A stretch of DNA of 64,000 nt from Variovorax paradoxus (lineage in GTDB: Bacteria > Pseudomonadota > Gammaproteobacteria > Burkholderiales > Burkholderiaceae_C): assembly GCF_018614955.1 (NCBI RefSeq), contig NZ_JAGGNV010000027.1:186001-250000 (forward strand), in the 5' to 3' direction. The position numbers and the translations under genes are program-made. The notes under the pieces were generated by a model. The model saw nothing but the letters and a program-made list of their open reading frames with translations. It had not been told where the DNA came from and did not search any database. Shown one piece after another: positions 34,830 to 55,311 of the stretch. Each line of letters begins with the position of its first letter. The first letter of the stretch is position 1.

Positions 34830-37274
<2,445 letters not shown>

Positions 37275-38085: not shown

Positions 38086-38094
38086 GCTGGCGAG

Positions 38095-39020
<926 letters not shown>

Positions 39021-39024
<4 letters not shown>

Positions 39025-40220
39025 GCGTTCCACAGTTAGGGGACGCGCGCCGGGGCAAGCTGGCCGGCAACATGATGGGTTTCGGCCGGGCGCTGCGCCG
39101 CGCCGGCGTGCGGACCGATTCGGCGCGCATCGCGCTCGCTGCCGATGCCGCGACGCTGGTCGGCGTCGACAGCCGGCTCGACCTGGCGGCCGCGATGGAG
39201 GCCGTGATGATCAGCCGCGAGCAGGACCGCCTGGTGTTTCGCGAACTCTTCGATGCCTGGTTCCGCGACCCCGAACTCGCCAACAAGCTGCTCGCCCAGA
39301 TGCTGCCGAGCGCCGAAGGCAAGGCCGAGCCTTCGATGCGCCGGCCGCGCGTGCGCGAGGCGCTCGCGGCGCCGCGCGATCCGGTCAAGCCCGCACAAAC
39401 CGAGCGCGAGATCGACTTCGACGCCGCGATGACGGCGAGCGATCGCCGGCGGGTGCACCACGCCGACTTCAACGCGCTGGGCGCCGCCGAGTACCGCCTG
39501 GTGGAGCGGCTGGCCCGCGACATTGCGCTGCCGGTGCCGGCGCTGCCCTCGCGCCGCCTGCGCGTGACCGGCGATGCCGGCGCGCATTCGCGCATGCACT
39601 GGCCCGGCGTCTGGCACGAGGCCGGGCGCACCGGCGGCGAGATGCTGCGCCTGCCGCGGCTCTCGCGGCGCAAGCAGCCGCTGCCCTTGCTGGTGCTGGT
39701 CGACGTCTCCGGATCGATGGAGCGCTATGCGCGCCTGCTGCTGGCCTTTCTGCATGCGGCGACGCGCCGCGCCGGCCGCCGCGACGTGTTCGCCTTCGGC
39801 ACCCAGTTGACCGACCTGACGCCGGCCTTCCGCATCGCCGACACCGACGCGATGCTGGCGGCAGCCGGCGAGGCCATCGCCGATTTCGCCGGCGGCACGC
39901 GCTTCGGCGCATCGCTCGGCGAACTGCGCGAGCGCCATGCGCGCCGCCTGACCGGCCGTCGCACGCTGGTGCTGGTGATCAGCGACGGCCTGGACACCGG
40001 CGAGCCCGAAACGCTGGAGCGCGAGCTGCTGTGGCTCAAGCGCCATTCGCGGCGCGTGCTGTGGCTCAACCCGCTGCTGCGCTACGAAGGCTATGCGCCG
40101 CTCGCGCGCGGCGCGGCCGTTCTGCACCGCCATGCAGATGCGATGCTCGCGGTTCACAATCTCAATGCACTCGAACAACTGGCCACGAGCCTCGCCGCCT
40201 TGATGCGCTCCGGCCGATAG
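39021..40220 (+). CDS. coxE: VWA-domain protein, CoxE-like
   Basis: This 399-residue protein has a C-terminal von Willebrand A domain with the MIDAS motif DVSGSMERYARLLL near residue 228, the Thr in GGTRFGASL and Asp in SDGLDTGEPE. CoxE-type VWA proteins pair with MoxR ATPases in metallo-enzyme maturation. The GTG start overlaps coxD. Confidence 0.92.
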
Positions 40221-40239
40221 ACAACACAAGGAAACCACC

Positions 40240-40851
40240 ATGGAAATGCTTGGCAACCGCCGGCTCGGCATCACGCAGCAGCAGGCCTGGGAGGCGCTCA
40301 ACGATCCCGAGACGCTGAAGAAATGCATTCCCGGCTGCGACAAGTTCGAGGCCGTAGGCGACAACCAGTACGCGGTGGCGCTCGCCGTCAAGATCGGACC
40401 GGTGTCGGCCAAGTTCAACGGCAAGGTCGCGCTGGCCGAGATCATGCCGCCCGACAGCTACCGTCTCTCCTTCGAAGGGCAGGGCGGCGTGGCGGGCTTT
40501 GCCAAGGGTTCGTCGAGCGTGACGCTCAAGCCGGTCGCTGAGGGAACTCCCGGCTGCGAGCTCGACTACACGGTGCAGGCGCAGGTGGGCGGCAAGATCG
40601 CGCAGCTCGGGCAGCGCCTGATCGACGGCGCCGCCAAGTCGACGGCCGACGATTTCTTCAAGCGCTTCGAGGCCGAGATGCAGAGCCGCTACGGCCCACC
40701 GCCGGCCGAGGCGGCCGAGAGTGCCGAAGGATCGGCTGCGGCAGAGCCCGCCGAGAAAACCGGTGCGATGGCCGGCCTGATGCGCAAGATCGGCATCGGC
40801 AGAAAGTCCGACAAGCCGGCAGACGGCGCGGACGACAAGACGGACGCCTAA
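40240..40851 (+). CDS. coxG: SRPBCC-domain protein, CoxG-like
   Basis: This 203-residue protein has a CoxG/SRPBCC domain at about residues 1-145 (QQQAWEALNDPETLKKCIPGCDKF, VGGKIAQLGQRLIDGAAKSTADDFFKRFE) and a charged Ala/Lys-rich tail. CoxG is thought to recruit the enzyme complex to the membrane in true CO oxidisers. Here no membrane anchor is evident, so the role may be assembly. AAGGAAA lies before the ATG. Confidence 0.9.
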   Translation: MEMLGNRRLGITQQQAWEALNDPETLKKCIPGCDKFEAVGDNQYAVALAVKIGPVSAKFNGKVALAEIMPPDSYRLSFEGQGGVAGFAKGSSSVTLKPVAEGTPGCELDYTVQAQVGGKIAQLGQRLIDGAAKSTADDFFKRFEAEMQSRYGPPPAEAAESAEGSAAAEPAEKTGAMAGLMRKIGIGRKSDKPADGADDKTDA

Positions 40852-40856
40852 GGACC

Positions 40857-41873
40857 ATGGAAAACCTCGACGTGATGGTCCTGCGCACGCTGCGCGACTG
40901 GCGGCTCGCGGGACGGCGCGCGCTGCTCACGACCGTGGTGCGCACCTGGGGATCCTCGCCGCGGCCGATCGGTTCGATCATGGCGCTGGCGGAAGACGGC
41001 GCCGTCATCGGATCGGTCTCGGGTGGCTGCATCGAAGACGACCTGATCGCGCGCTACAGCCGCGCGCACGGCGCACCGGGCGAGATGCCTTCGGGTGCGC
41101 CGGCGCTGGTCAAGTACGGCATCACGGCGGATGAGGCGCACCGCTTCGGCCTGCCCTGCGGCGGCACGCTGGAACTGCTGCTCGAATACGACCCCGACGC
41201 TGCCTCGCTCGAAACGCTGGTGGCCGCGCTCGAAAAAGGTCGCCTGATGCAGCGCGCCGTGTCGCTGGCCGATGGCGCGGTCAGCGTGGCCGAGGCGAGC
41301 GCGCCGGCCGAGCTCACGATCAGCGACACCGAGCTGGTGAACACCTTCGGCCCCGAGTACCGCATGCTGCTGATCGGTGCCGGCCAGCTGGCCGAGTACC
41401 TGTCGACGATGGCGAAGTTCAGCGGCTTCGCGGTGACGCTGTGCGATCCGCGCACCGAGTACCGCACGGCCTGGTCGGTGCCGGGCGTAACGCTGAGCAC
41501 CGAGATGCCCGACGATGCGGTGAGCGCCTTCAAGCCCGACCGCCGCAGTTGCGTGGTCGCGCTCACGCACGACCCGAAGCTCGACGACCTGGCCCTGCTC
41601 GAGGCCCTGCAGAGCGAGGCCTTCTACGTCGGCGCGATCGGCTCGCGCCGCAATGCCCAGGCGCGGCGCGAACGCATGATCGAGCACTTCGAGCAGACCG
41701 AGGCATCGCTTTCGCGCCTGCGCGGCCCGATCGGCATCTACATCGGCAGCAAGACGCCGCCCGAGATCGCGGTGAGCGTGATGGCCGAGATCCTGGCGGT
41801 GAAGAACGGGGTCAGGCTGCCGCGCGAGACCGAGGTCGCACACGCCAAGGAGGCCGCGGGCGCCGGCAAGTAG
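40857..41873 (+). CDS. XdhC/CoxF-family molybdoenzyme maturation protein
   Basis: This 338-residue protein has the XdhC_CoxI N-terminal domain (TTVVRTWGSSPRPIGSIMAL, VSGGCIEDDL) and a C-terminal Rossmann XdhC_C domain (LLIGAGQLAEYLSTMAKFSGFAVTLCDPR, YVGAIGSRRNAQARRERM, IGSKTPPEIAVSVMAEIL). XdhC proteins bind molybdenum cofactor, protect it, and help its sulfuration and insertion. It ends the operon, five bases after coxG. Confidence 0.9.
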   Translation: MENLDVMVLRTLRDWRLAGRRALLTTVVRTWGSSPRPIGSIMALAEDGAVIGSVSGGCIEDDLIARYSRAHGAPGEMPSGAPALVKYGITADEAHRFGLPCGGTLELLLEYDPDAASLETLVAALEKGRLMQRAVSLADGAVSVAEASAPAELTISDTELVNTFGPEYRMLLIGAGQLAEYLSTMAKFSGFAVTLCDPRTEYRTAWSVPGVTLSTEMPDDAVSAFKPDRRSCVVALTHDPKLDDLALLEALQSEAFYVGAIGSRRNAQARRERMIEHFEQTEASLSRLRGPIGIYIGSKTPPEIAVSVMAEILAVKNGVRLPRETEVAHAKEAAGAGK

Positions 41874-41900
41874 AAGAAGAGCGAGAAGAGAGGAGGGCCG

Positions 41901-42119
41901 TCAGTGCCTGCGCAGGCCGGCGAGGATGGTGGTGCTGCGGCCGAAGGCGCGTTGCATGTCCTTGGATTCGCGCGCTTCCTTGCGAGCCCTGGAGAAGACG
42001 AAGCTCGCGGCCGCCAGTGCGAAGCAGGCCCCGACCGCGATCATCAATCCGACGAAGGATCCCAGCCACCAGGCGAGGCCCAGGATCACGATGCTGGCGA
42101 GAAGAAGAATGGCGCGCAT
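41901..42119 (-). CDS. small two-helix membrane protein
   Basis: This 72-residue protein has two close hydrophobic helices (ILLLASIVILGLAWWLG and LMIAVGACFALAAASFVF) and a basic cytoplasmic tail. No family recognised. It converges on the XdhC gene 27 bp away and lies alone. Confidence 0.68.
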   Translation of the reverse strand: MRAILLLASIVILGLAWWLGSFVGLMIAVGACFALAAASFVFSRARKEARESKDMQRAFGRSTTILAGLRRH

Positions 42120-42192
42120 GGAGAGAAGGCTAGCAGAGCCCGGGCCGAACCAGGTATGAACTATTGCTCGGAAGCTGTGGGCGCTGCAGCTT

Positions 42193-43827
42193 TCATTCTG
42201 CGTTGCCCAAGGGTGCGTTTGCAGTCCCCTCGAATGCGGCGAGCAGCACCGGCGTCAGCTCATGCATGCCCGCGGTCGAAGGCCGCATCGGCAGCAGGCC
42301 CGGCGTGAAGCCGAGGGCCTCGAAGCGTTTCAGCAATTGCGTGTCCGCGCTGATGATGTGGACCGGCACGTCCCACGATGCGCCCGCGCCGCTCACGCTG
42401 GCCATCGGCTGGTGGTCGCCGATCACGATGGTGAGCAGCTGCCGCGGCGCGCGGCCCGACAGGTAGTCGCCCAGCCAGCGGAAGGTGTAGGCCAGCGATT
42501 CGACGTACGCGGGCATCGGCTGCAGCCATGAGGCCGGCGCGGCCAGGGCCTGCGCGACTTCGCCCGGCGTGTAGGCGTCGGCGCGCAGCAGGCGCTGCCA
42601 GTCGGGCACATAGGGCGCGATCGGACGGAAAGGCGCATGGCTCGTCAGGGTCGGGAAGACGATGAAGCGCGGCGCGCGTTGCCCGGGCGGCTCCGCCAGT
42701 TCCTGCGCGTGCAGCAGCGCCATCGAGGCCTGGTCGGGAACGCGCCAATAGCCGAAGGGCGGGCCGCGGTAGCCGATGCGGTTGGCGTCGGCATAGCGGT
42801 CGAAGCCGTAGAAGCTGCCTTCGGGCCAGGGCTTGTGCAGGCCCGGCATCCAGTTCACCGTGCGCCAGCCGTGGGCCTTGAAATGGCGCACCAGCGTCGG
42901 CCGGTCGGTGGTCAGCAGCAGTTCGTAGGCGCCGGGGTCCCGCGTGTCCACGCCGGAGAGCAGCGCCGCATGGGCCAGCCAGGAGGCGCCGCCGAAAGTG
43001 GGGGAGCGCACGCGCGCCGAGACGACCCGCCTTCCGCCGGACACGAGCGACTGTGCGAGCAGTGCGCGTGCCGGCGCGAGCGCGGCGGCCTGCTGCGGAT
43101 CGTCGAGCGCCGTGACGCCATAGGACTCGGCAAAGATCAGCAGCACGTCCGCGCCGCGCAGGCCTGCGAGCGAGCTGTGCTCGAAGGCCGGGCTGGGCGA
43201 AAGCTGCGAAGCCGCCTGGCCGGGCATCAGCTGGCCGGCCAGGATCTCCGCCTGCTGCGCAAGAATGGGCGCGACCGGCATCGAGAAGAACCAGCGCGTG
43301 TCGCGCCCGCCGAGGCCATGCGCGGCAAAGCTCGCGAAGAGCAGCAGGCCGATGAGGCCGATCGCGGGCCGCGGCCGCGGCCAGGCCAGTTCGCGTGCGA
43401 TCGCACGCCAGCATCGCCATGCCAAGCCGTACAGCAGCACAGGGATGGCCAGCGCGGCGAGCGCTGCCATGCCGATCTGCCACGCGGCGAGCTCGCCCAT
43501 GCGCAGCACGTCGAGCGCGTGCCTGCTGTCCCAGTAGAGATTGATCTGCCGGCCGAACACAGCCGACACCGTCACGTCGAAATAGCGCGCGACGATCCAG
43601 AAAGCGGTGACGCCCGCCAGCAGGCGCAACATGCGCGCGCCAGGCTGCCCGCGCCAGGACACCCAGGCCGTGAGCGCGAGCAGCGCCATGGCGAGCTCGA
43701 AGGACAGGCGCAGCGCCGGACGCGGCCACAGCCCCGGTCCGTGGTTCTCCATCGTCAGCAGCGCATTGAGCAGCAGCAGCGGCAGGGCGAAGCGCGGCAG
43801 CCACCCGCCCCATGCGACGGGCCTCAT
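42193..43827 (-). CDS. sulfatase-fold membrane hydrolase/phosphotransferase (LTA-synthase/EptA-like)
   Basis: This 544-residue protein has about five N-terminal membrane helices followed by an alkaline-phosphatase-superfamily domain: VLLIFAESYGVTA, TFGGASWLAHAALLSG (probable nucleophile region), FPTLTSHAPFRP and the metal motif IGDHQPM. It resembles sulfatase-like phosphoethanolamine or glycerol-phosphate transferases. The start overlaps the YceI stop (ATGA), tying it to the CDP-alcohol phosphotransferase operon. A phospholipid-head or polyol-phosphate acceptor is plausible, but the substrate is unknown. Confidence 0.85.
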   Translation of the reverse strand: MRPVAWGGWLPRFALPLLLLNALLTMENHGPGLWPRPALRLSFELAMALLALTAWVSWRGQPGARMLRLLAGVTAFWIVARYFDVTVSAVFGRQINLYWDSRHALDVLRMGELAAWQIGMAALAALAIPVLLYGLAWRCWRAIARELAWPRPRPAIGLIGLLLFASFAAHGLGGRDTRWFFSMPVAPILAQQAEILAGQLMPGQAASQLSPSPAFEHSSLAGLRGADVLLIFAESYGVTALDDPQQAAALAPARALLAQSLVSGGRRVVSARVRSPTFGGASWLAHAALLSGVDTRDPGAYELLLTTDRPTLVRHFKAHGWRTVNWMPGLHKPWPEGSFYGFDRYADANRIGYRGPPFGYWRVPDQASMALLHAQELAEPPGQRAPRFIVFPTLTSHAPFRPIAPYVPDWQRLLRADAYTPGEVAQALAAPASWLQPMPAYVESLAYTFRWLGDYLSGRAPRQLLTIVIGDHQPMASVSGAGASWDVPVHIISADTQLLKRFEALGFTPGLLPMRPSTAGMHELTPVLLAAFEGTANAPLGNAE

Positions 43828-44420
43828 TTGCGCTTGGCCTCGAACTCGATGATGAGCGGTACCTCGTCGCCGACCCAGCCGTTGCTAACGGCGTAGTTCA
43901 TCCCGTAGCTGCTGCGCTTGAAGCTGCCGCGCGCCGACACGCCCATCACGTAGCTCTTCTCGATCGGCGAGGGCCCGCTCTTGTTCCAGGTCGCGGCGAG
44001 CGTCAGCGGCTGGGAGCGGCCCAGCAGCTCGAGCTGGCCGGCGACCTCGAAGGTGCGCTCGCCGGTGCGCTTGGCGCCGGCCGCGGTGAATACCATGCGC
44101 GGGAACTCGGCGGTGTTGAGGAAGTCGGCGCTCTTCAGGTGCTGGTCGCGCTTGGCGAAATTGCTGAAGACGCTCTGGGTGTCGACCTCGATGCGCACAC
44201 TGCTGAGCGTGGCCGTGGCTTCGTCGAAGCTGTAGCTGCCGCGCGCGGCGCGGAACATGCCGAGCACCTTGGCGTAGCCGATGTGATCGGCGAGGAAGGC
44301 GACGGTGAGATGTTCCGGGTCGAGCTCATAGCGTGCGGCCTCCGCGCGCGCGGGCATGGCCTGCGCCATGAGGAAGGACACGATGAGGGCATACGGCAAG
44401 CGGGTCGCGAGTGGGTTCAT
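43824..44420 (-). CDS. YceI-family periplasmic protein
   Basis: This 198-residue protein has a signal peptide ending ARAEA (about residue 26) and a YceI lipocalin-like domain with YELDPEHLTVAFLADHIG, SVRIEVDTQSVFSNFAKRDQHLKSADFLNTAEFP and VMGVSARGSFKRSSYGMNYAV. YceI proteins bind long polyprenyl-type lipids. It is coupled by overlap to the sulfatase gene (downstream) and to the CDP-alcohol gene (upstream). Confidence 0.9.
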   Translation of the reverse strand: MNPLATRLPYALIVSFLMAQAMPARAEAARYELDPEHLTVAFLADHIGYAKVLGMFRAARGSYSFDEATATLSSVRIEVDTQSVFSNFAKRDQHLKSADFLNTAEFPRMVFTAAGAKRTGERTFEVAGQLELLGRSQPLTLAATWNKSGPSPIEKSYVMGVSARGSFKRSSYGMNYAVSNGWVGDEVPLIIEFEAKRK

Positions 44421-45205
44421 GAGGCGGGTTCCAGTGAGGACGCGCGATGGCGGATCAGCCACGCGATGTCGATCGCGAAAGATGCGGTGAGCGCGGCCAG
44501 GCTCGCGGCCGCGATGGCGCGGCTCCAGGGCAGCGCGATGATCGGGCCGAGGCAGACGAGCAAGCTGGTGATCTGCGCCACGCAGACAGCCTTGCGCCGC
44601 TGGCTCGGCGCGAGCGGCCGCGCCAGCCAGGGCCAGGGCTTCATCGCCAGCACGAACGCGTAGCGCATCAGGCCGGCCGCGAGGATCCATGCGCCGGCCT
44701 TGTCGAAATGAAAGACCAGCAGGCAGAGCACGAAGGTCAGCAACGCATCGGTTTCCATGTCGAAGCGCGCGCCGAACTCGCTGGCCAGCCCGTTGCGGCG
44801 CGCGATCGGGCCATCGACGGCATCGAGCAGCGCGGCGGTGGTTCCCGCCACGATGACGCACCAGGCCATCGCTTCGGCATCCGCCAGCGGCTCGCCGATG
44901 CAGGCCGCGAGCAATGCGACGAGCACGAGGCGCGCCAGCGTCACCCGGTTGGCGGCGCCGAAGTGCGCGTTCGGCGCATGGGCCGGCAGGCCGTGCAGCA
45001 CCCACGCGAAGGCTGCCGCAAAGAGGGCGGCTGCCTTGAGCTTGAACCAGGGGCTGAGTTCGCCCAGCACCGAGAGCCCGCCGGCCGCCACGGCCAGCAG
45101 CAGGAAGCAGGGCGCGGCCGCGCGCCAGGCATCGCGCCGCAGCGCCGCGAGCCGGCCCGCGCTGAGTGCGGGGCCATCGGCAGGAGGATGGGTGAGCATC
45201 GTCAT
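44417..45205 (-). CDS. CDP-alcohol phosphatidyltransferase-family membrane enzyme
   Basis: This 262-residue integral membrane protein has a perfect catalytic motif D-x2-DG-x2-AR-x8-G-x3-D-x3-D ([10 protein letters not shown], then GARFDMETD) near the middle and about six helices. Enzymes of this class swap CMP on a CDP-alcohol, commonly CDP-diacylglycerol, for another alcohol, making phospholipids. The length differs from PgsA and PssA, and the cluster suggests a dedicated acceptor. Starts at 45205 or 45199 are both possible. It is divergent from the dehydrogenase gene with only 12 bp between the starts. Confidence 0.88.
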
Positions 45206-45217
45206 AAGATCCGTTGC

Positions 45218-46216
45218 ATGCCAGCATATCCCTCCCGTGCCGCTCCTGCCGAGTCCTGGGCCTGCTGGATCGAAGCGCCGGGCCGGGCCGGCATCCGGCG
45301 CGCGGCGTTCGATGCGCCCGGTCCCGAAGAAGTGCAGGTTCGGGCGCTGCACAGCGGGATCAGCCGCGGCACCGAGCTGCTGGTGTTCGGCGGCGAGGTG
45401 CCCGCCAGCGAATTCGAACGCATGCGCGCCCCTTTCCAGGAAGGCGAATTTCCAGCGCCGGTGAAGTACGGCTATGCGAGCGTCGGCACGGTCGAGCAAG
45501 GACCCGAGGCGCTTCGGGGCCGCGAGGTGTTCTGCCTCTATCCGCACCAGACCCGCTACGTGGTGCCGGCCGACGCCGTGCACCTGCTGCCCGAGGGCCT
45601 GCCGCCCGCACGCGCGGTGCTTGCGGCCAACATGGAGAGCGCCGTCAATGCACTGTGGGATGCGGCCCCGCGGGTCGGCGACCGCATCGCCGTCGTGGGC
45701 GCGGGCGTGGTGGGCCTGCTCGTGGCATGGCTGGCCGCGCGCATGCCGGGTTGCGCGGTCGAGGTGATCGACACCAATCCCGCGCGCCGCGTGGTGGCAG
45801 AACGGCTGGGCGTGGCTTTCGCTAGTCCGCAGGCTGCGAGTCCCGATGCCGACCTGGTGCTGCATGCCAGCGGCAGCGCAGCGGGCCTGGCCACGGCGCT
45901 GCGCCTGGCCGCCTTCGAGGCCACGGTGCTGGAGCTGAGCTGGTACGGACGGCGCGCAGTGACGCTGCCGCTGGGCGAAGCCTTCCATTCGCGGCGCCTC
46001 ACGCTCAAGAGCTCGCAGGTCGGCCAGGTGGCCGCGGCGCAGCGCGCGCGCTGGAGCCATCGGCGGCGCATGGCGCTGACGCTCTCGCTGTTGCGCGATC
46101 CGGTGCTCGATGCGCTCATCACCGACAGCGCGCCCTTCGCCGAACTGCCTGCCGTGCTCAATCGGCTCGCCGCGGGCGCGCCGGACACCTTGTGCCACCG
46201 CATCGACTATCCCTGA
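45218..46216 (+). CDS. MDR-family dehydrogenase, BchC-like, without zinc ligands
   Basis: This 332-residue medium-chain dehydrogenase resembles bacteriochlorophyllide-type (BchC) members: [43 protein letters not shown] and the nucleotide fold [20 protein letters not shown]. The catalytic-zinc Cys of alcohol dehydrogenases is replaced (SGISRGTE), so a zinc-dependent alcohol oxidation is unlikely. No photosynthesis genes are near. It leads the + strand half of the PTPS cluster. Confidence 0.85.
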
Positions 46217-46241
46217 CCTCTTCACCCTGGAAAGACTTCGC

Positions 46242-46640
46242 ATGTACAGCGTCAACGTCCGCGACCATTTCATGATTGCCCACAGCTTTCGCGGCCAAGT
46301 CTTCGGCCCCGCGCAGCGCCTGCATGGCGCGACCTATGTGGTCGATCTCGAACTGCGCCGCGCCGAGCTCGATGCCGACGGCGTGGTGGTCGACATCGCG
46401 CTCGCCACCGAGGTGCTGCGCAGCGTGCTGGGCGAGCTCAACTTGCGCAACCTCGACGACGACCCGGCCTTCGAGGGGCGCAACACCACCACGGAATTCA
46501 TGGCGCGCGTGATCTTCGATCGCGTCGCTGCGCGCATCGCGGCCGGCGAACTCGGCCCGCACGCCAGCGGCCTCGCGAGCATGCGCGTGAAGTTGAACGA
46601 ATCGCATGTGGCCTGGGCGGCCTACGAGGGCGCACTTTGA
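46242..46640 (+). CDS. non-canonical 6-pyruvoyl tetrahydropterin synthase/QueD homologue
   Basis: This 132-residue PTPS-fold protein has MIAHSF and RLHGATY at the metal site, [13 protein letters not shown] and the substrate-anchoring Glu in LNESHVAW. Canonical PTPS/QueD has a catalytic Cys shortly before LHGHxY and three Zn-binding His residues. Here the Cys position is Ala (GPAQRLHG) and the HGH is HGA, so one ligand and the nucleophile are missing. It may bind a pterin or act on a different substrate, rather than make sepiapterin or preQ0 precursors. The 3' end overlaps the glycosyltransferase start (TTGA). Confidence 0.85.
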
Positions 46641-47707
46641 CGATCAAGCGTTGCAGCTTCCTGGTGCCGGGTGACCTGAACACGCGCACCGGCGGCTACA
46701 CCTACGACCGCCACATCATCGACGGCCTGCGCGCGCAGCAGTGGGAGGTCGAGATCCTGACCTTGGGCGAAGGCTATCCGGCACCCGATGCGGCAGCGCT
46801 GGCGCAGGCCGGCCGCGCGGCCGATGCCTTGCCCGATGGCGCGCTGGCGGTGGTCGACGGCCTCGGCTTCGGCGTGCTGCCCGATCTGGCGCAAAGGCAT
46901 GCGGAGCGGCTTTGCTGGATCGCGCTGGTGCACCACCCGCTGTCGCTGGAGACCGGCCTCGACGCGGCGCAGCAGCGCGCCTTGTTCGAGAGCGAGCGGC
47001 GCGCGCTGGCCAGCGCGCGCGGTGTGATCGTCACCAGCCCTTCCACGGCGCGAGCGCTGGCAGCCTTCGACGTCCCGCAGTCGCGCATCGTCGTGGTCGA
47101 GCCCGGCACCGAGCCCGCCCCCTTGGCCGCAGGCTCGGGCACCGATGCCTTGTCGCTGTTGTGCGTGGCGACCGTGACGCCGCGCAAGGGGCATGCCCTG
47201 CTGATCGAAGCGCTGGCCGGGTTGAAGAACAGGCGCTGGACGCTGCATTGCGCCGGCAGTCTGGTCATGGACACCGCATGCGCAGCGGCATTGATCCAGG
47301 CCGTCGATCATCACGGCCTGCGCGAACGCGTCGTGCTGCACGGCGAGCAGGATGAGGCGGGCCTGCGCGCGCTCTATGCGAAGGCCGATGCCTTCGTGCT
47401 GCCCTCGTTCCATGAAGGCTACGGAATGGCCCTGGCCGAGGCGCTGGCGCACGGCCTGCCGGTGATCAGCACCCGCGCGGGCGCCATTCCGGACACCGTG
47501 CCGGCCGACGCGGGGATGCTGGTGCCGCCCGGCGACGCGATCGCGCTGCGTGCCGCGTTGCAGCGGCTGATGGACGATGCGGCGCGGCGCGCCCAACTGA
47601 GTGCTGGCGCGCAAAGGGCGCGAGGCCGTCTGCCGACCTGGTCTCAGAGCAGCACGCGCTTCGCATCGGCGCTTGCCGATTTCCGGCAGCAGGCAGGAGG
47701 CGCATGA
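46637..47707 (+). CDS. family-4 glycosyltransferase
   Basis: This 356-residue GT-B glycosyltransferase has an N-terminal glycine-rich acceptor loop ([20 protein letters not shown]) and the C-terminal donor site with [17 protein letters not shown] and the EX7E pattern [16 protein letters not shown]. It transfers a sugar from a nucleotide donor. Being coupled to the PTPS homologue and the methyltransferase, it probably glycosylates their shared product or its lipid carrier. A TTG start overlaps the PTPS gene. Confidence 0.87.
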
Positions 47708-48507
47708 CAGGCTTCAGCGCCGACTGGCTCGCGCTGCGCGAGCCCTTCGACCGCGCGGCGCGCAGTGCGTCGGCGGCGCTTCTGGATCTGCAGGCTGCGG
47801 CGGTCCGGCTGCGCGACGATCCGGTCTTGCGCGTGATCGACCTGGGCTGCGGCACCGGCGCCAATCTGCGCGAGCTGGCACCGCGACTCGGCGGCGCCCA
47901 GCAGTGGCTGATGATCGACGACGATCCGCACCTGCTGGCGGCGCTGCCGGAGGCGCTCGAAGCTCCGGGATGGCATGCGAGCGTGCGTCCGCTCCCTCTC
48001 GATCTCGCGCTGGCGCTGGCTGCCGTGCCCTACTTAGAAGCCCGGCTCGTCACCGCCTCCGCGCTGCTGGACCTCGTGTCCGCCTCGTGGCTCGATGCGC
48101 TGCTGGCGCATGTGCGGGCGGCGAACGCGGCCGCGCTCTTCGCGCTGAACGTCGATGGGCGCGTTGCGTGGGAGCCCGGCCTTGCAGGCGACGTGGAGGT
48201 CCATGAACTGTTCGCCGCCCATCAACGGCGCGACAAGGGTTTCGGACCCGCGCTCGGCGCTGAAGCAGCGGCGCTGGCCGTCGCTCGCCTCGATGCGCTG
48301 GGTTACCGCGTCACGCAGGCGCAGAGCGACTGGTGCATCGAAGAGCCGGCCATGCTGCGAGCGATGATCGAAGGTATGGCCGACGCGGCGCTGGAACAGG
48401 ATCCGGCTGCGGAGGAGCGCGTCGGCGCATGGACGGCGCGGCGGCTTGAGCTTGTCGATCGCACCTGCTTGCGCGTGGGGCACGTGGATCTTCTGGCGAT
48501 GCCCTAG
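47704..48507 (+). CDS. SAM-dependent methyltransferase
   Basis: This 267-residue class-I methyltransferase has motif [17 protein letters not shown] near residue 43 and an acidic motif-II region (MIDDDPHLL). The C-terminal half is unlike small-molecule O-methyltransferases I know. It is coupled to the glycosyltransferase (ATGA) and ends the + strand operon; its last four bases overlap the convergent ORF6N gene. Confidence 0.85.
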
Positions 48508-49091
48508 CTCGGCTTTCTTGTCTTGGGAGCAACGAAACCGATCGGGCGTTTGGCCGGCTCGAGTGGGGTCATCAGCTCTCGCAGTGCGTCGAACACCTGC
48601 CGCAGCTGGTTGCGCGTGTTGCTGCTGAAGGTCTCCTGCTGCATTGCCACGAGTTCCGTCTTCTTCTCGAGTTCGGCCAGCCGCATTGCCAAGTCCTGAT
48701 GCGTGACGGCTAACTCGCGAATGCGCACGAAGGTACGCATGATCTCGATATTGACCGCCACTGCGCGTTCGCTGCTGAGCACCGAGGACAGCATCGCGAC
48801 ACCTTGCTCGGTGAAGGCGTAGGGGGCTGTACGCCTGCCGCCCCGGCCACTGTTTGAGGTCACAGTTTGTGACCTCAAAGCTGAAAACTCTTCCGTCGAC
48901 AACTGGAACATGAAGTCGCCCGGGAACCGTTCCAGGTTGCGTTTGACCGCTTGCACCAATACCTTGGTCTGTACGTCATAGAGCTCCGCCAGATCGGCAT
49001 CGAGCATCACGCGTTGGCCGCGCAGCGTAAGAATGCGAGTCTGAATGAGCGGCTGCAGGAGTGGCGCGTTCACGGCCGGCTCCGCCGGCAT
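48504..49091 (-). CDS. ORF6N-domain (phage antirepressor-like) protein
   Basis: This roughly 195-residue protein has an N-terminal ORF6N domain: [48 protein letters not shown], and [36 protein letters not shown], then a coiled-coil-like tail. ORF6N proteins are common on phages and genomic islands and probably bind DNA. It breaks the otherwise functionally related PTPS cluster, so recent insertion is likely. The start at 49091 is a choice; the frame is open further upstream. Confidence 0.82.
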
Positions 49092-49123
49092 GTTCTCGGC
49101 CTCATGTTGAGATGCAGACTCAT

Positions 49124-49146
49124 TGATCACTCCCTGATCATTTTTT
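49124..49146. promoter_or_regulatory. paired TGATCA palindromes upstream of ORF6N gene
   Basis: TGATCA at 49124-49129 and again at 49135-49140 with five bases between, followed by TTTTTT (49141-49146). Each half is itself a palindrome. It may be the ORF6N protein's operator; on the + strand it also resembles a weak terminator (6-bp stem). The remainder of 49092-49180 shows nothing else. Confidence 0.35.
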
Positions 49147-49180
49147 GGAGCCGTGAATGTAGAGGAGGGTCGAAGGACGG

Positions 49181-50023
49181 TCAATGTCGTTGCGGGCCCA
49201 AATCCAGATCCCACATCACATCCGCCCCCATGCGAAAAACCCGGCTCGCGGGGCGCGCGCAATCCCGCATCGCTGCGCTTTGCGGCAGCAGCAGGCCGGG
49301 GCGCCCACCGCCGATCAGCACCGGCGCGACGCTGAGGTGCAGCCGGTCCATGCAGCCCTGCGCGATGAAGTGCGAGACCGTGACGCCGCCCCCTTCGACG
49401 AAGAGCACGCGCAGGCCGCGCTGCTGCAGCGCCGGAAGCAGTGCGCGCAAGTCCATCGCGCCCTTGGCGTCCACCAGGCCCGGCACGCCCAGCACCTGAT
49501 CGGCAACTACGCGCTGCGCCGCTTCGGCCTCACGTGCTGCGTCGCAGACGAGCAGGGTCGGCGCCTGGCGATCGGTGAAGACGCGCAGCGTCGGCGCCAG
49601 GCGCAGGCCCGGGTCGAGCACGACGCGTACCGGGTTCGCACCCGCCACGCGGCGCGTCGTGAGCTGCGGGTTGTCGATGGCCGCGCTGCCGGCGCCCACG
49701 ATGACCGCATCGCTGAGTGCGCGCAGCCGGTGGAGATGCAGCAGCACCTGCTCGCCGTTCACGTAGTTGGAATCGCCGCCGCGGGTGGCGATGCAGCCGT
49801 CGAGGCTTTGGCCCAGCTGGCCGATCACCCAGGGCACGCCGTCGGGCGGCCGATAGAGCAGGGGTTGAAGCAGCGCGAGGAGCTCGACCGCTTCGTCGTC
49901 CCACTCGTCGTCCGGCACCAGCTGCGTCGCCTGCGGCTCGCCGCTGCGGCGACGCCGGGCGATGTCCAGGCACAGCGGCCACAGCGCTTGCACGCCGAAC
50001 CTGCGGGGCTGGGTCGAGCTCAT
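49181..50023 (-). CDS. RibD C-terminal (dihydrofolate-reductase-like) reductase
   Basis: This 280-residue protein has an N-terminal region of about 60 residues of its own and then the RibD reductase domain: [94 protein letters not shown]. The deaminase domain of bifunctional RibD is absent. Such stand-alone domains reduce pyrimidine, pterin or deazaflavin-type substrates with NADPH. Beside a PTPS homologue, a pterin reductase role is attractive. An in-frame GTG at 50053 adds ten residues. Confidence 0.85.
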
Positions 50024-50046
50024 GAGGGGGCGCGGGTTGTGGACAT

Positions 50047-50901
50047 TCACCACCTGGGCTTGTAGTAAGGGTCGTCCATGTTAGCGGCGGGCGTGTCGAC
50101 CCCGCCCCAGTAGGCCAGTGCCAGCGCGGCGGCCACCCACAAGGCGGCCACCGCGGCGACGATCAGCGTTTCGACCCACGGACGGCCCTCGCCGCGCCGC
50201 AGGCGCCGATGCCCCCATCGCACCAGCGAGCCGGAAGTGAAGCACGCGGCCAGCAGCAGCAAGGCGCCCGGCCGGGCCGGCGTCAGCAGTGCCGTGGCCT
50301 GCGCCAGCGCCAGCCAGGCCAGCAGCGCGACGACGGCGCCGCTGGCGCCGAAAGCGATGCGCCCCACAGGCCAGAGCCACAGCGCGCAGCCCGCGAGCGC
50401 GGCGCCGAGCGCGAGGCTCAACTCGAACAGCAGGGCGGAGCCTGACATCATCGCGAGCGCTGCCAGCCCGAAGCTCGCGAGCACGAGCATCGCGATCGCA
50501 TCGGCACGCCGCGGGGCTTCCTTCAACGCGGCGCGGATCACCGCCAGGCCCAGCAGCCAGACACCGATCTTGAGCGGGAGCGGCTGCCAGGCCAGGATCG
50601 CCAGCACCAGCGCCCACAGGATGCCGGCTGCCAGCCACTGCACGCGCCGGCCGGCGCGCATGGCTTCCAGGCCGAGGCCCAGCAGCGCAGCCGCCGCATA
50701 GACCCACGGCAGCTTTTCGGTCAGCGCGCCCGGCATCAGCCGCCAGCCCAGCACCCACAGCACGGTGCCGACGATCGCTACCGCAACGCCCGCCGCCGCA
50801 CCCTGGACCGGGCCGAGCGCGCCGCGCAGAAGCCCCGTCGCCGCGAATGCGATGCAAAGCGGCAGCGCCAGGCTCTGGAACAGCGGGTGGTGGAAGTCCA
50901 T
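50047..50901 (-). CDS. multi-helix membrane protein of unknown function
   Basis: This 284-residue protein is made almost wholly of about eight hydrophobic helices (LCIAFAATGLLRGALG, WVYAAAALLGLGLEAM and others), with a short charged C-terminal tail ending DDPYYKPRW. No family recognised. It lies 23 bp upstream of the RibD-type gene on the same strand and so probably shares its transcript. Start is ATG 50901; a GTG two codons upstream is possible. Confidence 0.75.
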   Translation of the reverse strand: MDFHHPLFQSLALPLCIAFAATGLLRGALGPVQGAAAGVAVAIVGTVLWVLGWRLMPGALTEKLPWVYAAAALLGLGLEAMRAGRRVQWLAAGILWALVLAILAWQPLPLKIGVWLLGLAVIRAALKEAPRRADAIAMLVLASFGLAALAMMSGSALLFELSLALGAALAGCALWLWPVGRIAFGASGAVVALLAWLALAQATALLTPARPGALLLLAACFTSGSLVRWGHRRLRRGEGRPWVETLIVAAVAALWVAAALALAYWGGVDTPAANMDDPYYKPRW

Positions 50902-50930
50902 TCCCACGGTTATGCAGGTGCAATGCCGAT

Positions 50931-51602
50931 TCAGTCAACGCTGGCATCTTGGGGCGAAACGCCCTGTGCCAGTGCCGCATCGTGCTGCGCGACGAGGGCG
51001 CGGCCAAAGGCCTCGCGCTGCTGCAGGCGTTGCCAGTAGGCGGCCACGGCGGCGGGAAACTGCGCAGCTAGGCCCAGCTTGTTGGCCAGCATCAGCGCAT
51101 AGCCGACCGAGATGTCGGCGGCAGTGAAACGTCCCGCGCTGAGGAAGTCTTGCTGCTGCAGCACCGCATCGATGCCGCGCAGCCGTGCCAGGAACCATCG
51201 CGTGTAGTCCTCGGCCGCCTGCGGCAGCTTGCGCTCGTCGGGCTCGAAGCGGGCGTAGCGCAGCACGATGGTCTGGGGGAAGGTCAGCGTGGCCTCGCCC
51301 TGGTGCAATCCGTTGAGCCAGGCACCGAAGCCGGGCTCGTGCGGCCGCACGGCCAGGCCGTGCAGGTTGTCGGGGTCGAAGCGCTCAGCCAGGTACTGGC
51401 AGATCGCGGCCGACTCCGTCATCCGCGTCTCGCCGTCGATGAGGTAGGGAATGGTGCCGAGCGGATTGATCTCCAGATAGCTGCGTTGCAGCGCGCGCGG
51501 CGGGAAGGGCAGCATGCGCAGCTCGTAGGGCGCGCCCAGCTCTTCGAGCATCCACAGCGGGCGGAAGGAACGGGCGCTGACGCAGTGGTAGAGGACGACC
51601 AT
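50931..51602 (-). CDS. glutathione S-transferase
   Basis: This 223-residue protein has an N-terminal thioredoxin-fold GST domain with ARSFRPLWMLEELGAPYELRMLPF and the glutathione-binding GTIPYLIDGETRMTESAAICQYLAERF, and a helical C-terminal domain (FTAADISVGYAL). The Ser in the VSARS opening could be the catalytic residue. Stand-alone gene. Confidence 0.9.
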   Translation of the reverse strand: MVVLYHCVSARSFRPLWMLEELGAPYELRMLPFPPRALQRSYLEINPLGTIPYLIDGETRMTESAAICQYLAERFDPDNLHGLAVRPHEPGFGAWLNGLHQGEATLTFPQTIVLRYARFEPDERKLPQAAEDYTRWFLARLRGIDAVLQQQDFLSAGRFTAADISVGYALMLANKLGLAAQFPAAVAAYWQRLQQREAFGRALVAQHDAALAQGVSPQDASVD

Positions 51603-51633
51603 CGGGCCGACTCTACCCGTGTCCGCAGCCCAT

Positions 51634-51702
51634 TCAATCGAGCGTTGCTCCCGATTGCTTTACCAGCTTCCGGTGCTTGCTCAGCTCGGCCTGGAAGAAG
51701 GC
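51634..51702 (-). pseudogene. C-terminal relic of a TctC/Bug-type solute receptor
   Basis: A short frame encodes AFFQAELSKHRKLVKQSGAT and ends LD-stop. This is the characteristic C-terminal helix of tripartite-tricarboxylate (Bug family) binding proteins. Upstream the frame gives no recognisable receptor, so only the tail remains. It sits between the GST gene and the ferredoxin-reductase-type gene, in a 197-bp gap with no other gene. Confidence 0.5.
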
Positions 51703-51799
51703 CGGCGCAGGCTGTAGGCGTCGATGCGGCGGGTCATGGCGCGCATCCCAAGGGCGCCGCTTGCCGAGCGAGAATCTGCAGCATCAACGAAAGCCATCC

Positions 51800-53029
51800 A
51801 TGAATTCAAGCAGAGACATCGTGATCATCGGCGGCGGCCACGCCGCCGCACAGCTGTGCGCCGGCCTGGCGGAGGCGGGGCAGGGCGCCCGCGTGCATCT
51901 GGTGTGCGAGGAGAGCTCAATTCCCTATCACCGGCCGCCGCTGTCCAAGACCTTCCTCAAGAGTCCGGACGAGGCGCCGCAGCTCCATCGCGCCGAGGCG
52001 TGGTATGCCGAAGCCGGGATCACGATGCACCTGGGCGACCCAGCGCTTGCGATCGATCGCGCGGCGCGCACCGTCACGCTGCGTTCGGGCACCGTGCTCG
52101 GCTGGGAGCGGCTGGTGCTCGCAACGGGCACGCGCGCACGCCGCCTGCCGGCGCTGGTGGGGCTGGAGAACGTGGCGCTGCTGCGCGCCGCCGACGAAGC
52201 CGCGCAGCTGCGTTCGATGTTGATGGCGGCGCAGCAGGTCACGGTGCTCGGAGGCGGCTTCATCGGCCTCGAGGTGGCGGCGACGGCACTGGCGCTCCGC
52301 AAGCGAGTGAGCGTGCTGGAGAGCGCGCCGCGGCTCTTGAGCCGTGCCGTGTCGCCCGCGCTGTCAGAGCATGTGCTCGCGACCCATCGCGCCGCGGGCA
52401 TGGACATCCGGATCGGCGTGCAATGCGGCGCCTGGCAGACCGAGGGCCGGCGCCTCGCGGCGATCGAGGTCGACGGCGCGGCGCAGCCGGTCGACCTGCT
52501 GATGCTCGGCATTGGCGCCGTGCCCGAGACCGCGCTTGCGCAGGCCGCCGGGCTCGAATGCGCCGACGGCATCGTTGTCGATGCCTACATGCAGACCAGC
52601 GACGAGGCCGTGCTCGCGGTCGGCGACTGCACGCGCTTTCCGGATCGGCGCGCGGGCCAGGCCTTGCGGCTGGAGTCGGTGCAGAACGCCAACGACCAGG
52701 CGCGCACGGCGGTCGCGACGCTGACCGGCGCGGCCCGACCGCACGATGCGGTGCCGTGGTTCTGGTCGGATCAGGGCAGCCTGCGCTTGCAGATGGCCGG
52801 GCTGGTCCCGGCCGAAGGCACGGCCGGCGCAAGCATGGTGCGGCGTCCGGGCGCCAATCCGGCTTCGTTCTCGCTGCTGCACTACGTGGATGGCGTGCTG
52901 CGCTGCGTGGAGTCGGTCAACGCGCCGGTGGACCACATGATGAGCCGCAAGCTGCTGGAGGCTGGACGCAGCCCGGACCCGGCGGTTGCAGCTGACCCCG
53001 CCGTGCCCTTGAAGACGCACCTGGGCTAG
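51800..53029 (+). CDS. ferredoxin/rubredoxin-type NAD(P)H reductase (FAD-dependent)
   Basis: This 409-residue flavoprotein has an N-terminal FAD fold (DIVIIGGGHAAAQLCAGLAEAG), SIPYHRPPLSKTFLKS, an NAD fold (VTVLGGGFIGLEVAATALALRKRVSVLE, about 148) and a second FAD signature VLAVGDCTRFPD, matching the AlkT/PdR/ThcD-type ferredoxin reductases. No ferredoxin or P450 gene is adjacent. It converges on a small gene by four bases. Confidence 0.9.
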   Translation: MNSSRDIVIIGGGHAAAQLCAGLAEAGQGARVHLVCEESSIPYHRPPLSKTFLKSPDEAPQLHRAEAWYAEAGITMHLGDPALAIDRAARTVTLRSGTVLGWERLVLATGTRARRLPALVGLENVALLRAADEAAQLRSMLMAAQQVTVLGGGFIGLEVAATALALRKRVSVLESAPRLLSRAVSPALSEHVLATHRAAGMDIRIGVQCGAWQTEGRRLAAIEVDGAAQPVDLLMLGIGAVPETALAQAAGLECADGIVVDAYMQTSDEAVLAVGDCTRFPDRRAGQALRLESVQNANDQARTAVATLTGAARPHDAVPWFWSDQGSLRLQMAGLVPAEGTAGASMVRRPGANPASFSLLHYVDGVLRCVESVNAPVDHMMSRKLLEAGRSPDPAVAADPAVPLKTHLG

Positions 53030-53247
53030 CTCGTCATGCTGCGGCGCCGTGCAGGCGCGGCGCTCCTGCGCAGCTCGGCGTCCATCACGCGGGTTCCGGC
53101 CGCGAGCGCGGCCTCATAGGTGTCGGCGCCGTATTCCGCCGATTTCAGAACCTTCCGCGGCGCGCCTTCGGTGTCGGTTTCGAGCAGCGTCCAGACGAAG
53201 GATCCGGGCGCCGGCTCATCGATGGTGAGTTTGATCGGATTTTTCAT
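53026..53247 (-). CDS. small soluble protein of unknown function
   Basis: This 73-residue protein has a beta-rich start (KNPIKLTIDEPAPGSFVWTLLETDTEG), a helix and a basic tail. Similar small proteins occur in Variovorax relatives, with no known role. Its frame has high GC at third positions. It converges on the reductase gene and lies upstream of nothing else on its strand. Confidence 0.65.
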   Translation of the reverse strand: MKNPIKLTIDEPAPGSFVWTLLETDTEGAPRKVLKSAEYGADTYEAALAAGTRVMDAELRRSAAPARRRSMTS

Positions 53248-53322
53248 GGCCCACTCATCCTGGGCGCCGGGGTCCTCGATTTCTGTAGGCGAAGGCCGAT
53301 CGTCGCGCCGGTTACATCGTCC

Positions 53323-54765
53323 TCACGCCCTGGCCGGTTCTTCTTCCGCCGAGCGGCTTGGCGACGCGGTACGCAGCAGCAGCACCCCGAGCAGGCCTGC
53401 TGCCGCCGCGAAGACGGCACCGACGATGAAAGCCACGTGATAGCCGCCGTTGAGCGCGGCCAGCGCCTGCGCGCCGGAGACCGTGAGCCGCTCGGTGCGC
53501 GCCGAGGCAAGGCTGGCGAGCACCGCGAGCCCCAACGCGCCGCCCATCATGAAAGACGTGTTGACGATGCCCGAAGCAAGGCCCGATTCGCTTGGCGCGA
53601 CATCGCTCATCGCGACCAGCAGCATCGGGTTGAGCGCAATGCCGGCGCCGAGGCCGAGCAGCGTCATGCCGGGCATCACGTCGAGCAGGAAGCTGCCGTC
53701 CACCGGCGCGCGGGCGAACAGCGCCAGTCCCGCGGCCGCCAGCAGCAGCCCGAACGCGAGCGGCCCGCGGTTGCCGAAGCGCATCACCAGCTTGGCCGAG
53801 AGGCCGAGCGAGAAGGCCGCCATGATGAGGTTGGCCGGCAGGAAGGCGAGGCCCACCTGCATCGGGCTATAGCCCAGCACCAGTTGCAGGTAGAGCGCCG
53901 AGATGAAGAACCACGCGAACATGGCGGCAGCCCACAGCACGCCCATCACGTTGGCGACGGACACGTTGCGCAGGCGGAACAGGCGCAACGGCATCAGCGG
54001 ATGGCGCACGCGCGCCTCGATGGCGATGAAGACCGCCAGCAGTGCCGCCGCGATGCCGAGCAGGCCCAGCGTCTGCGTCGAAGTCCAGCCGATCTCGTTG
54101 CCGTTGACGATCGCATACACCGCCAGCATCAACGAAAGCGTGACGCTCACCGCGCCGCCGACGTCGAGCTTCTCGCCGGCCGCATGCCCGGGCAGGTGCG
54201 GCAGCAGCGCGAGGCACAGCGCATAGACCGCCACGCCGATCGGCAGGTTGACGAGAAAGATCCAGTGCCAGCTGAGCACGTCGGTCAGCAGCCCGCCCAG
54301 CAGCACGCCGATGCTGCCGCCGCCGGCGCACACGAAGCCATAGACGCCCATCGCCTTGGCGCGTTCGGCCGGTTCGGTGAACAGGTTCATGATGAGCGAC
54401 AGCGCGACCGCCGAGACCACCGCGCCGCCCAGGCCCTGCACCGCGCGCGCGGCGATCAGCAGGGCTTGCGAGTTCGAGAGACCGCAGGCCAGCGAGGCCA
54501 GGGTGAACAGCGTGATGCCGAGCAGGAATAGCCGCCGATGCCCGAACAGGTCGCCCAGCCGGCCGCCCAGGAGCAGGAAGCCGCCGAAGGTGAGCATGTA
54601 GGCGTTCACCACCCAGACCAGCGAGGTCTCGGTGAAGCCGAGGTCGGTGCGGATCGAGGGCAGCGCCACGTTCACGATCGTGGTGTCGAGCACGATCATC
54701 AGCACGCCGAGACAGAGGACCATGAGTGCCAGCCAGCGCCGGCGGCCTTCGATGTGCTGGCTCAT
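53323..54765 (-). CDS. DHA2-family MFS drug/H+ exporter
   Basis: This 480-residue transporter has about 14 membrane helices. It has the DHA2 signature VLDTTIVNVALPSIRTDLGF in helix 1 and LGGRLGDLFGHRRLFLLG in the loop between helices 2 and 3, typical of EmrB-like 14-helix exporters. It is coupled to the SRPBCC gene (ATGA) and follows the SDR gene, so it may export a product or toxic analogue handled by them. Confidence 0.9.
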   Translation of the reverse strand: MSQHIEGRRRWLALMVLCLGVLMIVLDTTIVNVALPSIRTDLGFTETSLVWVVNAYMLTFGGFLLLGGRLGDLFGHRRLFLLGITLFTLASLACGLSNSQALLIAARAVQGLGGAVVSAVALSLIMNLFTEPAERAKAMGVYGFVCAGGGSIGVLLGGLLTDVLSWHWIFLVNLPIGVAVYALCLALLPHLPGHAAGEKLDVGGAVSVTLSLMLAVYAIVNGNEIGWTSTQTLGLLGIAAALLAVFIAIEARVRHPLMPLRLFRLRNVSVANVMGVLWAAAMFAWFFISALYLQLVLGYSPMQVGLAFLPANLIMAAFSLGLSAKLVMRFGNRGPLAFGLLLAAAGLALFARAPVDGSFLLDVMPGMTLLGLGAGIALNPMLLVAMSDVAPSESGLASGIVNTSFMMGGALGLAVLASLASARTERLTVSGAQALAALNGGYHVAFIVGAVFAAAAGLLGVLLLRTASPSRSAEEEPARA

Positions 54766-55295: not shown

Positions 55296-55311
55296 GAAAA
55301 AGAATCTCCGT

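Follow-up and report, generated by a model that had tools for sequence, protein, structure and literature searches.

Gene content and organization of the locus

We analysed a stretch of 64,000 nt from Variovorax paradoxus (assembly GCF_018614955.1, contig NZ_JAGGNV010000027.1, positions 186,001 to 250,000 of the forward strand), in the following termed the window. It belongs to a genome of 7 Mb in 124 contigs. The subject is a gene cluster at window positions 42193-50901 around a homologue of the PTPS family, for which the original prediction had proposed a pathway leading to a glycosylated, methylated pterin-like or lipid-linked compound. The locus comprises the following genes.

42193-43827, minus strand: sulfatase-like membrane protein (Pfam Sulfatase 21.6 bits, below the cut-off of 25)
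43824-44420, minus strand: YceI-family protein (Pfam YceI 125.8 bits), an optional accessory
44417-45205, minus strand: CDP-alcohol phosphotransferase (Pfam 55.5 bits, cut-off 22), divergent from the dehydrogenase gene
45218-46216, plus strand: MDR-type, BchC-like dehydrogenase (TIGR01202 52.2 bits), core partner of PTPS-IV
46242-46640, plus strand: PTPS-IV (subfamily of COG0720), 132 aa, T-fold, FGPAQ motif (Pfam PTPS 90 bits)
46637-47707, plus strand: GT4 glycosyltransferase (Pfam Glyco_trans_1_4 104.3 bits)
47704-48507, plus strand: S-adenosylmethionine (SAM)-dependent methyltransferase (Pfam Methyltransf_25 28.8 bits, cut-off 27)
48504-49091, minus strand: ORF6N-domain gene between the methyltransferase and RibD_C genes (Pfam ORF6N 117.6 bits), outside the pathway
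49181-50053, minus strand: stand-alone RibD_C reductase (Pfam RibD_C 134.5 bits, gathering cut-off 24.1)
50047-50901, minus strand: membrane protein of no known family (TM8), a neighbour in the Comamonadaceae set only and not part of the core

All genes named in the original prediction are open frames at or near their predicted places and match the predicted families. These calls were right, but the list had passed over the ORF6N gene at 48504-49091. Overlaps of 4 bases join PTPS to GT4, GT4 to the methyltransferase, CDP-alcohol phosphotransferase to YceI and YceI to the sulfatase-like gene. The dehydrogenase and PTPS genes are 25 bases apart, and 12 bases separate the divergent starts at 45205 and 45218, counted with the start codons used. 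The coordinates bear out the overlapping operon on the plus strand, the coupled operon on the minus strand and their divergence by 12 bp. The name BchC does not apply to the dehydrogenase in the strict sense, as it stays far below the cut-off of the equivalog model (TIGR01202, 52.2 vs 291.25 bits). No Rfam RNA reached the gathering score within window positions 36000-56000. The nearest named relative of the cluster is found in Variovorax sp. J22R133, with 83% over dehydrogenase and PTPS.

The core is conserved in at least four phyla

Strong matches to the dehydrogenase are present in 27 of 398 Pseudomonadota genomes (E ≤ 2.2e-74), the next match following at 1.7e-31 with 35% identity. A PTPS profile likewise matches 27 genomes strongly (E ≤ 7.4e-61, followed by 1.7e-14), and the two sets are identical (Fisher p 1.7e-42 for co-presence in the 398 genomes; this and all other p-values ignore relatedness). 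The profile comprises 26 sequences from loci found by means of the dehydrogenase and is hence biased toward that set. Even so, the 27 genomes are set off from all others by a wide gap (7.4e-61 to 1.7e-14).

A scan of genome contigs gave at least 594 pattern matches and at least 589 confirmed stretches, from which 80 named loci were taken (43 Pseudomonadota, 28 Actinomycetota, 5 Gemmatimonadota and 4 Acidobacteriota). Together with loci of 26 of the 27 strong Pseudomonadota genomes and 14 nearer relatives they make up the 120 loci analysed here. Loci truncated at contig ends were retained, as were duplicates (L077/L084, L079/L087, L045/L100, L046/L116 and very probably L052/L108). Dehydrogenase and PTPS genes are adjacent on one strand in all 120 loci, spanning four phyla. 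PTPS is followed by GT4 in 117 of them, with the methyltransferase next in line after GT4 in 108.

Among 37 genomes of the window's genus, the 16 with PTPS-IV all have RibD_C (E < 1e-80), whereas the remaining 21 have neither (p 8e-11); a further cluster-bearing genome, G454, lies outside these 37. In G006 RibD_C and PTPS-IV are located on separate contigs, which suggests a functional tie beyond mere linkage.

The flanking genes behave differently. We compared 20 Comamonadaceae loci with the 100 loci outside this set (tblastn E ≤ 1e-8 within 10 kb of PTPS). The control neighbours XdhC, ORF6N, FAD reductase and TM8 are found in 0/100 loci outside Comamonadaceae, and GST in a single one (1/100). 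Flanking genes thus vary by lineage, with TM8, ORF6N, GST and XdhC being local, which is what an accidental assembly of unrelated genes would lead one to expect. For the core such an assembly is refuted by the identical presence in 27/398 genomes, the gene order conserved in four phyla and the neighbour controls, and we grant it practically no probability; it still holds true for ORF6N and the other local neighbours. Since the same gene set lies side by side in at least four phyla, the cluster is a true conserved pathway and not a chance neighbourhood. The original prediction had named missing co-occurrence as the finding that would speak against it; in the neighbourhood comparison the genes do co-occur (identical set of 27/398 genomes, adjacency in 120/120 loci). 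A fixed genomic site for the cluster was also considered and rejected, XdhC being near in just 10/20 Comamonadaceae loci.

In a tree based on dehydrogenase and PTPS, Actinomycetota form one supported group while the other phyla are mixed, and the window groups with Variovorax, Xenophilus and Pseudorhodoferax. The distribution within the genus is patchy. Some transfer of the cluster between lineages is likely. In one genome (G275:C1:3776773-3777727, in L068) the dehydrogenase is split into two overlapping pieces, one with an internal stop, beside an intact PTPS-IV gene; this may be decay or a sequencing error.

The PTPS homologue belongs to subfamily PTPS-IV

The FGPAQ motif is found in the window protein and in 117/120 loci. 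It is given as the signature of PTPS-IV in excerpts of two studies (PMC5445326; PMC5041015). The motifs CxxxHGH, CxxxxxHGH and ExxHGH, listed for PTPS-I, II and III in the same excerpts, are absent: all 120 loci carry HGA in place of HGH (HGH 0/120), and a Cys within 8 residues before HGA occurs once (1/120).

Further residues were placed by alignment to human PTPS. At the position of the Asp-His pair, which we take to be the catalytic pair of PTPS enzymes, Asp is found in 4/120 and His in 0/120 loci. One zinc His is missing. All 120 loci retain two His and two Glu. One of these Glu lies in the TTTE region aligned with STTEN of human PTPS and is presumably the pterin anchor.

The predicted structure of the window protein (pLDDT 94.8) is closest to 3d7j among solved structures (E 5.6e-61, 63% identity, TM-score 0.96), which represents SCO6650 of Streptomyces coelicolor and was released in 2008. 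The corresponding structure paper reportedly describes neither zinc nor the triad nor PTPS activity, but a site suited to pterin.

As the catalytic Cys, the Asp-His pair and one zinc His are gone, the window protein is, by its sequence, a member of PTPS-IV and not a PTPS/QueD enzyme, so that the enzyme name used in the original prediction has to be corrected. Most likely PTPS-IV still binds a 2-amino-4-oxo pyrimidine or a pterin and acts on it in another way. The weak matches to the QueD and 6PTHBS models might suggest a mixed operon containing a normal enzyme of the QueD or folate type; however, both fall below cut-off (TIGR03367, 46.5 vs 89.25 bits; 6PTHBS, 34.9 vs 125.5 bits), HGH and the Asp-His pair are lost, the genome itself possesses a second, HGH-bearing gene of the family, and the presence of PTPS-IV is tied to the dehydrogenase. 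We thus rejected this assignment on the motif counts (HGH 0/120, His 0/120, Asp 4/120) and consider it hardly credible.

The second PTPS-family gene of the genome (L163, G000:C30:160833-161057, minus strand) has HGH and a Ser at the place of the catalytic Cys of QueD. Small genomes (family f57 and a few others) lacking an orthologue of the dehydrogenase carry a further group of the PTPS family, with E values of roughly 1e-14 to 1e-11 against the PTPS-IV profile.

Partner families of the core

Presence of further families near PTPS was scored by tblastn (E ≤ 1e-8 within 8.5 kb) in six locus sets, which cover 119/120 loci (L081 lies outside the sets). The genus set comprises 13 of 16 positive genomes, G015, G021 and the window itself being left out. 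Counts are listed in the order phylum sample (26), genus (13), named Pseudomonadota (43), Actinomycetota (28), Gemmatimonadota (5) and Acidobacteriota (4).

RibD_C: 22/26, 12/13, 37/43, 18/28, 3/5, 4/4
GTP cyclohydrolase II (PF00925): 11/26, 0/13, 17/43, 21/28, 0/5, 3/4
Creatininase: 6/26, 0/13, 18/43, 8/28, 3/5, 2/4
CDP-alcohol phosphotransferase: 12/26, 10/13, 34/43, 25/28, 4/5, 4/4 (89/119 in all)
Flippase-like: 11/26, 0/13, 21/43, 26/28, 3/5, 0/4
Sulfatase-fold: 2/26, 9/13, 11/43, 8/28, 2/5, 4/4
YceI: 4/26, 9/13, 12/43, 0/28, 0/5, 0/4
FkbM: 8/26, 0/13, 19/43, 2/28, 3/5, 2/4
MdoH: 10/26, 0/13, 12/43, 0/28, 1/5, 0/4

GTP cyclohydrolase II, creatininase, the flippase-like family LPG_synthase_TM, FkbM methyltransferase, MdoG/MdoH and cytochrome b561 are recurrent partners elsewhere that do not adjoin the cluster of the window. 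One grouping of genes into families, based on a crude choice of frames, served solely to spot further families. The cyclohydrolase II, creatininase, flippase-like, FkbM and MdoG/MdoH partners point to a GTP-derived diaminopyrimidine route combined with work at the membrane.

Pfam detects no deaminase domain in the RibD_C protein of the window, which thus lacks the architecture of bifunctional RibD, and the deaminase-like zinc motif PCxxxG-PxC occurs in 0/97 RibD_C homologues. In sequence it is closest to stand-alone diaminopyrimidine reductases. Its best solved matches are 2azn, which we take to be an archaeal reductase, and 6p8c, named 2,5-diamino-6-ribosylamino-pyrimidinone phosphate reductase. 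The dehydrogenase profile matches sugar, polyol and alcohol dehydrogenases, and the best solved matches of GT4 are Tll1590 and a D-inositol 3-phosphate glycosyltransferase.

Several partners are fused in individual lineages. Pfam confirms a creatininase-RibD_C fusion of 603 aa in a Gemmatimonadales bin (L107), a GTP cyclohydrolase II-RibD_C fusion of 437 aa in Pseudonocardia acidicola (L157) and a GT4-methyltransferase fusion in a Burkholderiales bin (L097). A GT4-methyltransferase frame in L105 is seen by BLAST, Pfam detecting the GT4 part alone.

The presence of creatininase follows the state of the cyclohydrolase. Of the cluster cyclohydrolases, 39 lack the initial Arg of the RQEGR loop and 30 of these have creatininase nearby; among the 13 that retain this Arg, none does. 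At residue 105, GTP cyclohydrolase II 2bz0 has a Tyr, which aligns with Met in the Streptomyces cluster enzyme of L104. In Actinomycetota, creatininase is near 8/8 enzymes with Met, His or Gln at this place and near 0/12 with Tyr, one row (L124, no creatininase nearby) being gapped there. The Tyr before the RQEGR loop was considered as the active-site Tyr and rejected, since the alignment to 2bz0 places residue 105 further on. The loci are not independent because the lineages are related. A Streptomyces cyclohydrolase II paralogue with Met at the place of residue 105 stops at a formyl compound, and archaea strip this formyl group with an enzyme of the creatininase family. Given this chemistry and the tie to altered cyclohydrolases, the pattern fits a deformylase, i.e. 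creatininase would act in deformylation after opening of the GTP ring.

The cluster GTP cyclohydrolases II of L050, L055, L064, L068, L092, L097 and L114 (Pseudomonadota and Acidobacteriota) exhibit an extra N-terminal part of ~180 residues. Scans of L055 and L092 gave no Pfam name for it.

Lipid and membrane associated genes

The CDP-alcohol phosphotransferase gene divergently adjoins the dehydrogenase gene in 58/80 named loci. The motif DxxDGxxAR-x(7-9)-GxxxDxxxD is present in 89/89 homologues as well as in the window protein. In 7/26 loci of the phylum sample (L053, L058, L061, L064, L065, L066 and L067) MdoH takes the place of the CDP-alcohol gene divergent next to the dehydrogenase. A flippase-like gene is found in 61/120 loci.

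The sulfatase-fold gene is a frequent accessory (13/20 loci inside, 24/100 outside the Comamonadaceae set). In the predicted structure of the window protein (pLDDT 88.9) the outer domain matches the fold of LtaP best (Z 20.6, root-mean-square deviation 4.0, 275 aligned residues), followed by LtaS, GacH, BcsG and EptA/MCR. These phosphotransferases share the fold (Z ~18 to 21) but only 9-16% identity. E234 and H397 are invariant in the family and T277, D471 and H472 are present in ≥90% (21 sequences). Enzymes of the LtaS/EptA type use a Thr nucleophile with Glu, Asp and His as metal ligands, roles that these residues may have. The LtaP/LtaS/EptA-type fold with conserved Glu, Thr, Asp and His fits a protein that would move a unit from a phospholipid outside the membrane.

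Two members of the predicted set have a narrower standing. YceI is optional (13/20 inside, 12/100 outside Comamonadaceae). The membrane protein at 50047-50901 is limited to the Comamonadaceae set (13/20 vs 0/100 elsewhere) and does not count among the core genes; none of its 9/9 members has a Pfam match. The idea that it replaces the flippase-like protein was rejected as well, a comparison of profiles giving a probability of 0.8%.

Proposed pathway and alternative explanations

Based on this analysis, we propose that a dedicated operon makes a GTP-derived compound of the 2-amino-pyrimidinone or pterin type, which would receive a sugar and a methyl group and, most likely, be attached to a membrane phospholipid and displayed on the outer face of the inner membrane. 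We see about equal reason to accept and to doubt this proposal. We infer each reaction, the order of reactions and the product from the conservation, linkage, gene fusions, residue losses and retentions, and folds observed above.

A GTP cyclohydrolase II type enzyme would open GTP, with a creatininase-family deformylase where needed, giving 2,5-diamino-6-ribosylamino-pyrimidinone phosphate. These enzymes are encoded within the cluster in relatives, whereas in the window a housekeeping enzyme would have to serve. RibD_C would then reduce the ribose to a ribityl chain and, having no deaminase, would leave the 2-amino group in place. Acting with the MDR dehydrogenase, PTPS-IV would bind the 2-amino-pyrimidinone or pterin ring and carry out some step that does not rely on the PTPS machinery. 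Subsequently GT4 may add a sugar and the methyltransferase a methyl group. The CDP-alcohol phosphotransferase would join a hydroxyl to a phosphatidyl group, and outside, the LtaS/EptA-like protein and, in relatives, the flippase-like protein would handle the lipid form.

Several observations weigh against this proposal. The product is read from genes, and the families GT4, methyltransferase and MDR tell little about the substrate. GTP cyclohydrolase II, creatininase and the flippase-like gene are not found nearby in the window and in 13/13 genus loci, nor were extra copies of them found in cluster-bearing genomes of the genus. Additional copies elsewhere in these genomes were considered and rejected, as the three families occur in 41, 38 and 41 of 41 genomes (cyclohydrolase II, flippase and creatininase, respectively), cluster or not. 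RibD_C is not nearby in 4/26 loci of the phylum sample and the CDP-alcohol gene is not near in 14/26. Moreover, 9/39 altered cyclohydrolases have no creatininase nearby, creatininase scores nearer to MftE than to ArfB, and the loop is altered in 39/52 cluster cyclohydrolases, so that their activity cannot be assumed and another one is possible. Finally, the fold match splits transferases from sulfatases (Z ~18) by just ~2 Z units.

The 14/26 phylum-sample loci having the core but no CDP-alcohol gene nearby would suit a soluble, secreted glycoside of the pterin or lumazine type like those of cyanobacteria and Chlorobium, with the CDP-alcohol, YceI and sulfatase-fold genes being a separate, neighbouring lipid module. 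Pterin glycosides and pteridine glycosyltransferases are indeed known (excerpts of PMC5683033 and PMC13259868). Yet the CDP-alcohol gene is near in 34/43, 25/28, 4/5 and 4/4 named loci of the four phyla, it stands divergent beside the dehydrogenase in 58/80, and a flippase-like gene accompanies 61/120 loci; a soluble product hence seems possible but rather doubtful to us. Another function at the envelope would be decoration of a periplasmic glycan, e.g. MdoG/MdoH glucans, whereby the sulfatase-fold protein would transfer a phospho-head group and the pterin-like proteins would have been recruited to make that group. The LtaS/BcsG/EptA-like fold agrees with this, as does MdoH near 10/26 loci of the phylum sample (divergent beside the dehydrogenase in 7/26), 12/43 named Pseudomonadota and 1/5 Gemmatimonadota. 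Against it, MdoH and MdoG are near in 0/28 Actinomycetota and 0/13 genus loci with the core unchanged there, which makes it quite unlikely.

We deem it very unlikely that the cluster branches off flavin or deazaflavin (F420-like) biosynthesis. GTP cyclohydrolase II and RibD_C homologues are near, and an excerpt of a 2016 paper cites PTPS-IV in archaeal F420 as unpublished (PMC5041015). However, neither the deaminase domain in the window RibD_C protein nor its zinc motif in the homologues (PCxxxG-PxC, 0/97) is present, and lumazine synthase and FO synthase are not among the annotated recurrent families, some small families being left unannotated.

Returning to the proposed lipid-linked compound, its most far-reaching form would be a new class of membrane lipid, namely a phospholipid with a glycosylated, methylated pterin head group whose synthesis would do without GTP cyclohydrolase I. 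GTP would first be opened in the manner of cyclohydrolase II and deformylated where needed; after formation of the ribityl chain by RibD_C, the MDR enzyme would oxidise the polyol, and the ring would close to a dihydropterin on PTPS-IV although the usual machinery is missing there. Oxidation of the polyol chain is suggested because the dehydrogenase profile matches polyol dehydrogenases among others. Flipped outward, such a lipid might represent a membrane-anchored redox or signalling pterin or a donor for decoration of envelope glycans. We consider this unlikely in its full extent. As for the modified pterin of the original prediction, a conserved pathway with glycosylation, methylation and phospholipid-head chemistry is supported and the pterin core is plausible, while the molecule and the lipid link are still deduced from genes.

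Relation to known systems

Excerpts of a 2017 study (PMC5445326) report PTPS-IV with FGPAQ as cluster-node 62 of an AGeNNT network, with a PF00925/PF01872 neighbourhood. PF00925 is termed GTP cyclohydrolase I there, whereas Pfam's own name is GTP cyclohydrolase II. The window shares FGPAQ and the RibD_C (PF01872) neighbour, and relatives share PF00925; the genus of the window differs by lacking PF00925 in 13/13 loci. Neither a product nor a dehydrogenase, GT4, methyltransferase or CDP-alcohol partner is named in the excerpts. The statement that no named pathway has this gene set agrees with our findings as far as the product is concerned. PMC5445326 and PMC5041015, however, already describe the subfamily and some of its neighbouring genes.

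The first steps of archaeal and fungal riboflavin synthesis (ArfA/RibA, ArfB, ArfC/Rib7) resemble the cluster in that GTP opening, creatininase-family and deaminase-less RibD_C proteins occur together or fused in relatives. They differ in that no deaminase was found in the cluster and that PTPS-IV, GT4 and lipid enzymes follow. The pterin glycosides of cyanobacteria and Chlorobium use ordinary pterin synthesis. They share a glycosyltransferase beside pterin-type chemistry, but lipid genes are not mentioned in the excerpts of PMC5683033 and PMC13259868.

In the open-licence literature searched we found no paper on the product of the PTPS-IV cluster and none on a lipid-linked membrane component of the pterin type. 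The retention of this orphan gene set in four or more phyla (at least 589 confirmed stretches) speaks for a selected, seemingly undescribed molecule. With the pathway solved, PTPS-IV would gain a function, its structure (3d7j) having been available since 2008, and the misleading names QueD, BchC-like and RibD could be corrected in these genomes. A lipid-linked product would be a seemingly undescribed kind of membrane component and would bear on how pterins cross bacterial membranes, an open question according to an excerpt of a 2026 review (PMC13259868).

Neighbouring genes

Directly 5' of the cluster, at window positions ~37294-41873 on the plus strand, genes for an FAD subunit and MoxR, VWA, CoxG and XdhC proteins have, by eye only, the look of a molybdenum-hydroxylase (CO dehydrogenase-like) operon. 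ORF6N is a family known from phages. A piece 93% identical to the ORF6N gene of the window is found in G013 (L069, 11751-11924), while ORF6N is near the cluster in none of the other 119 loci.

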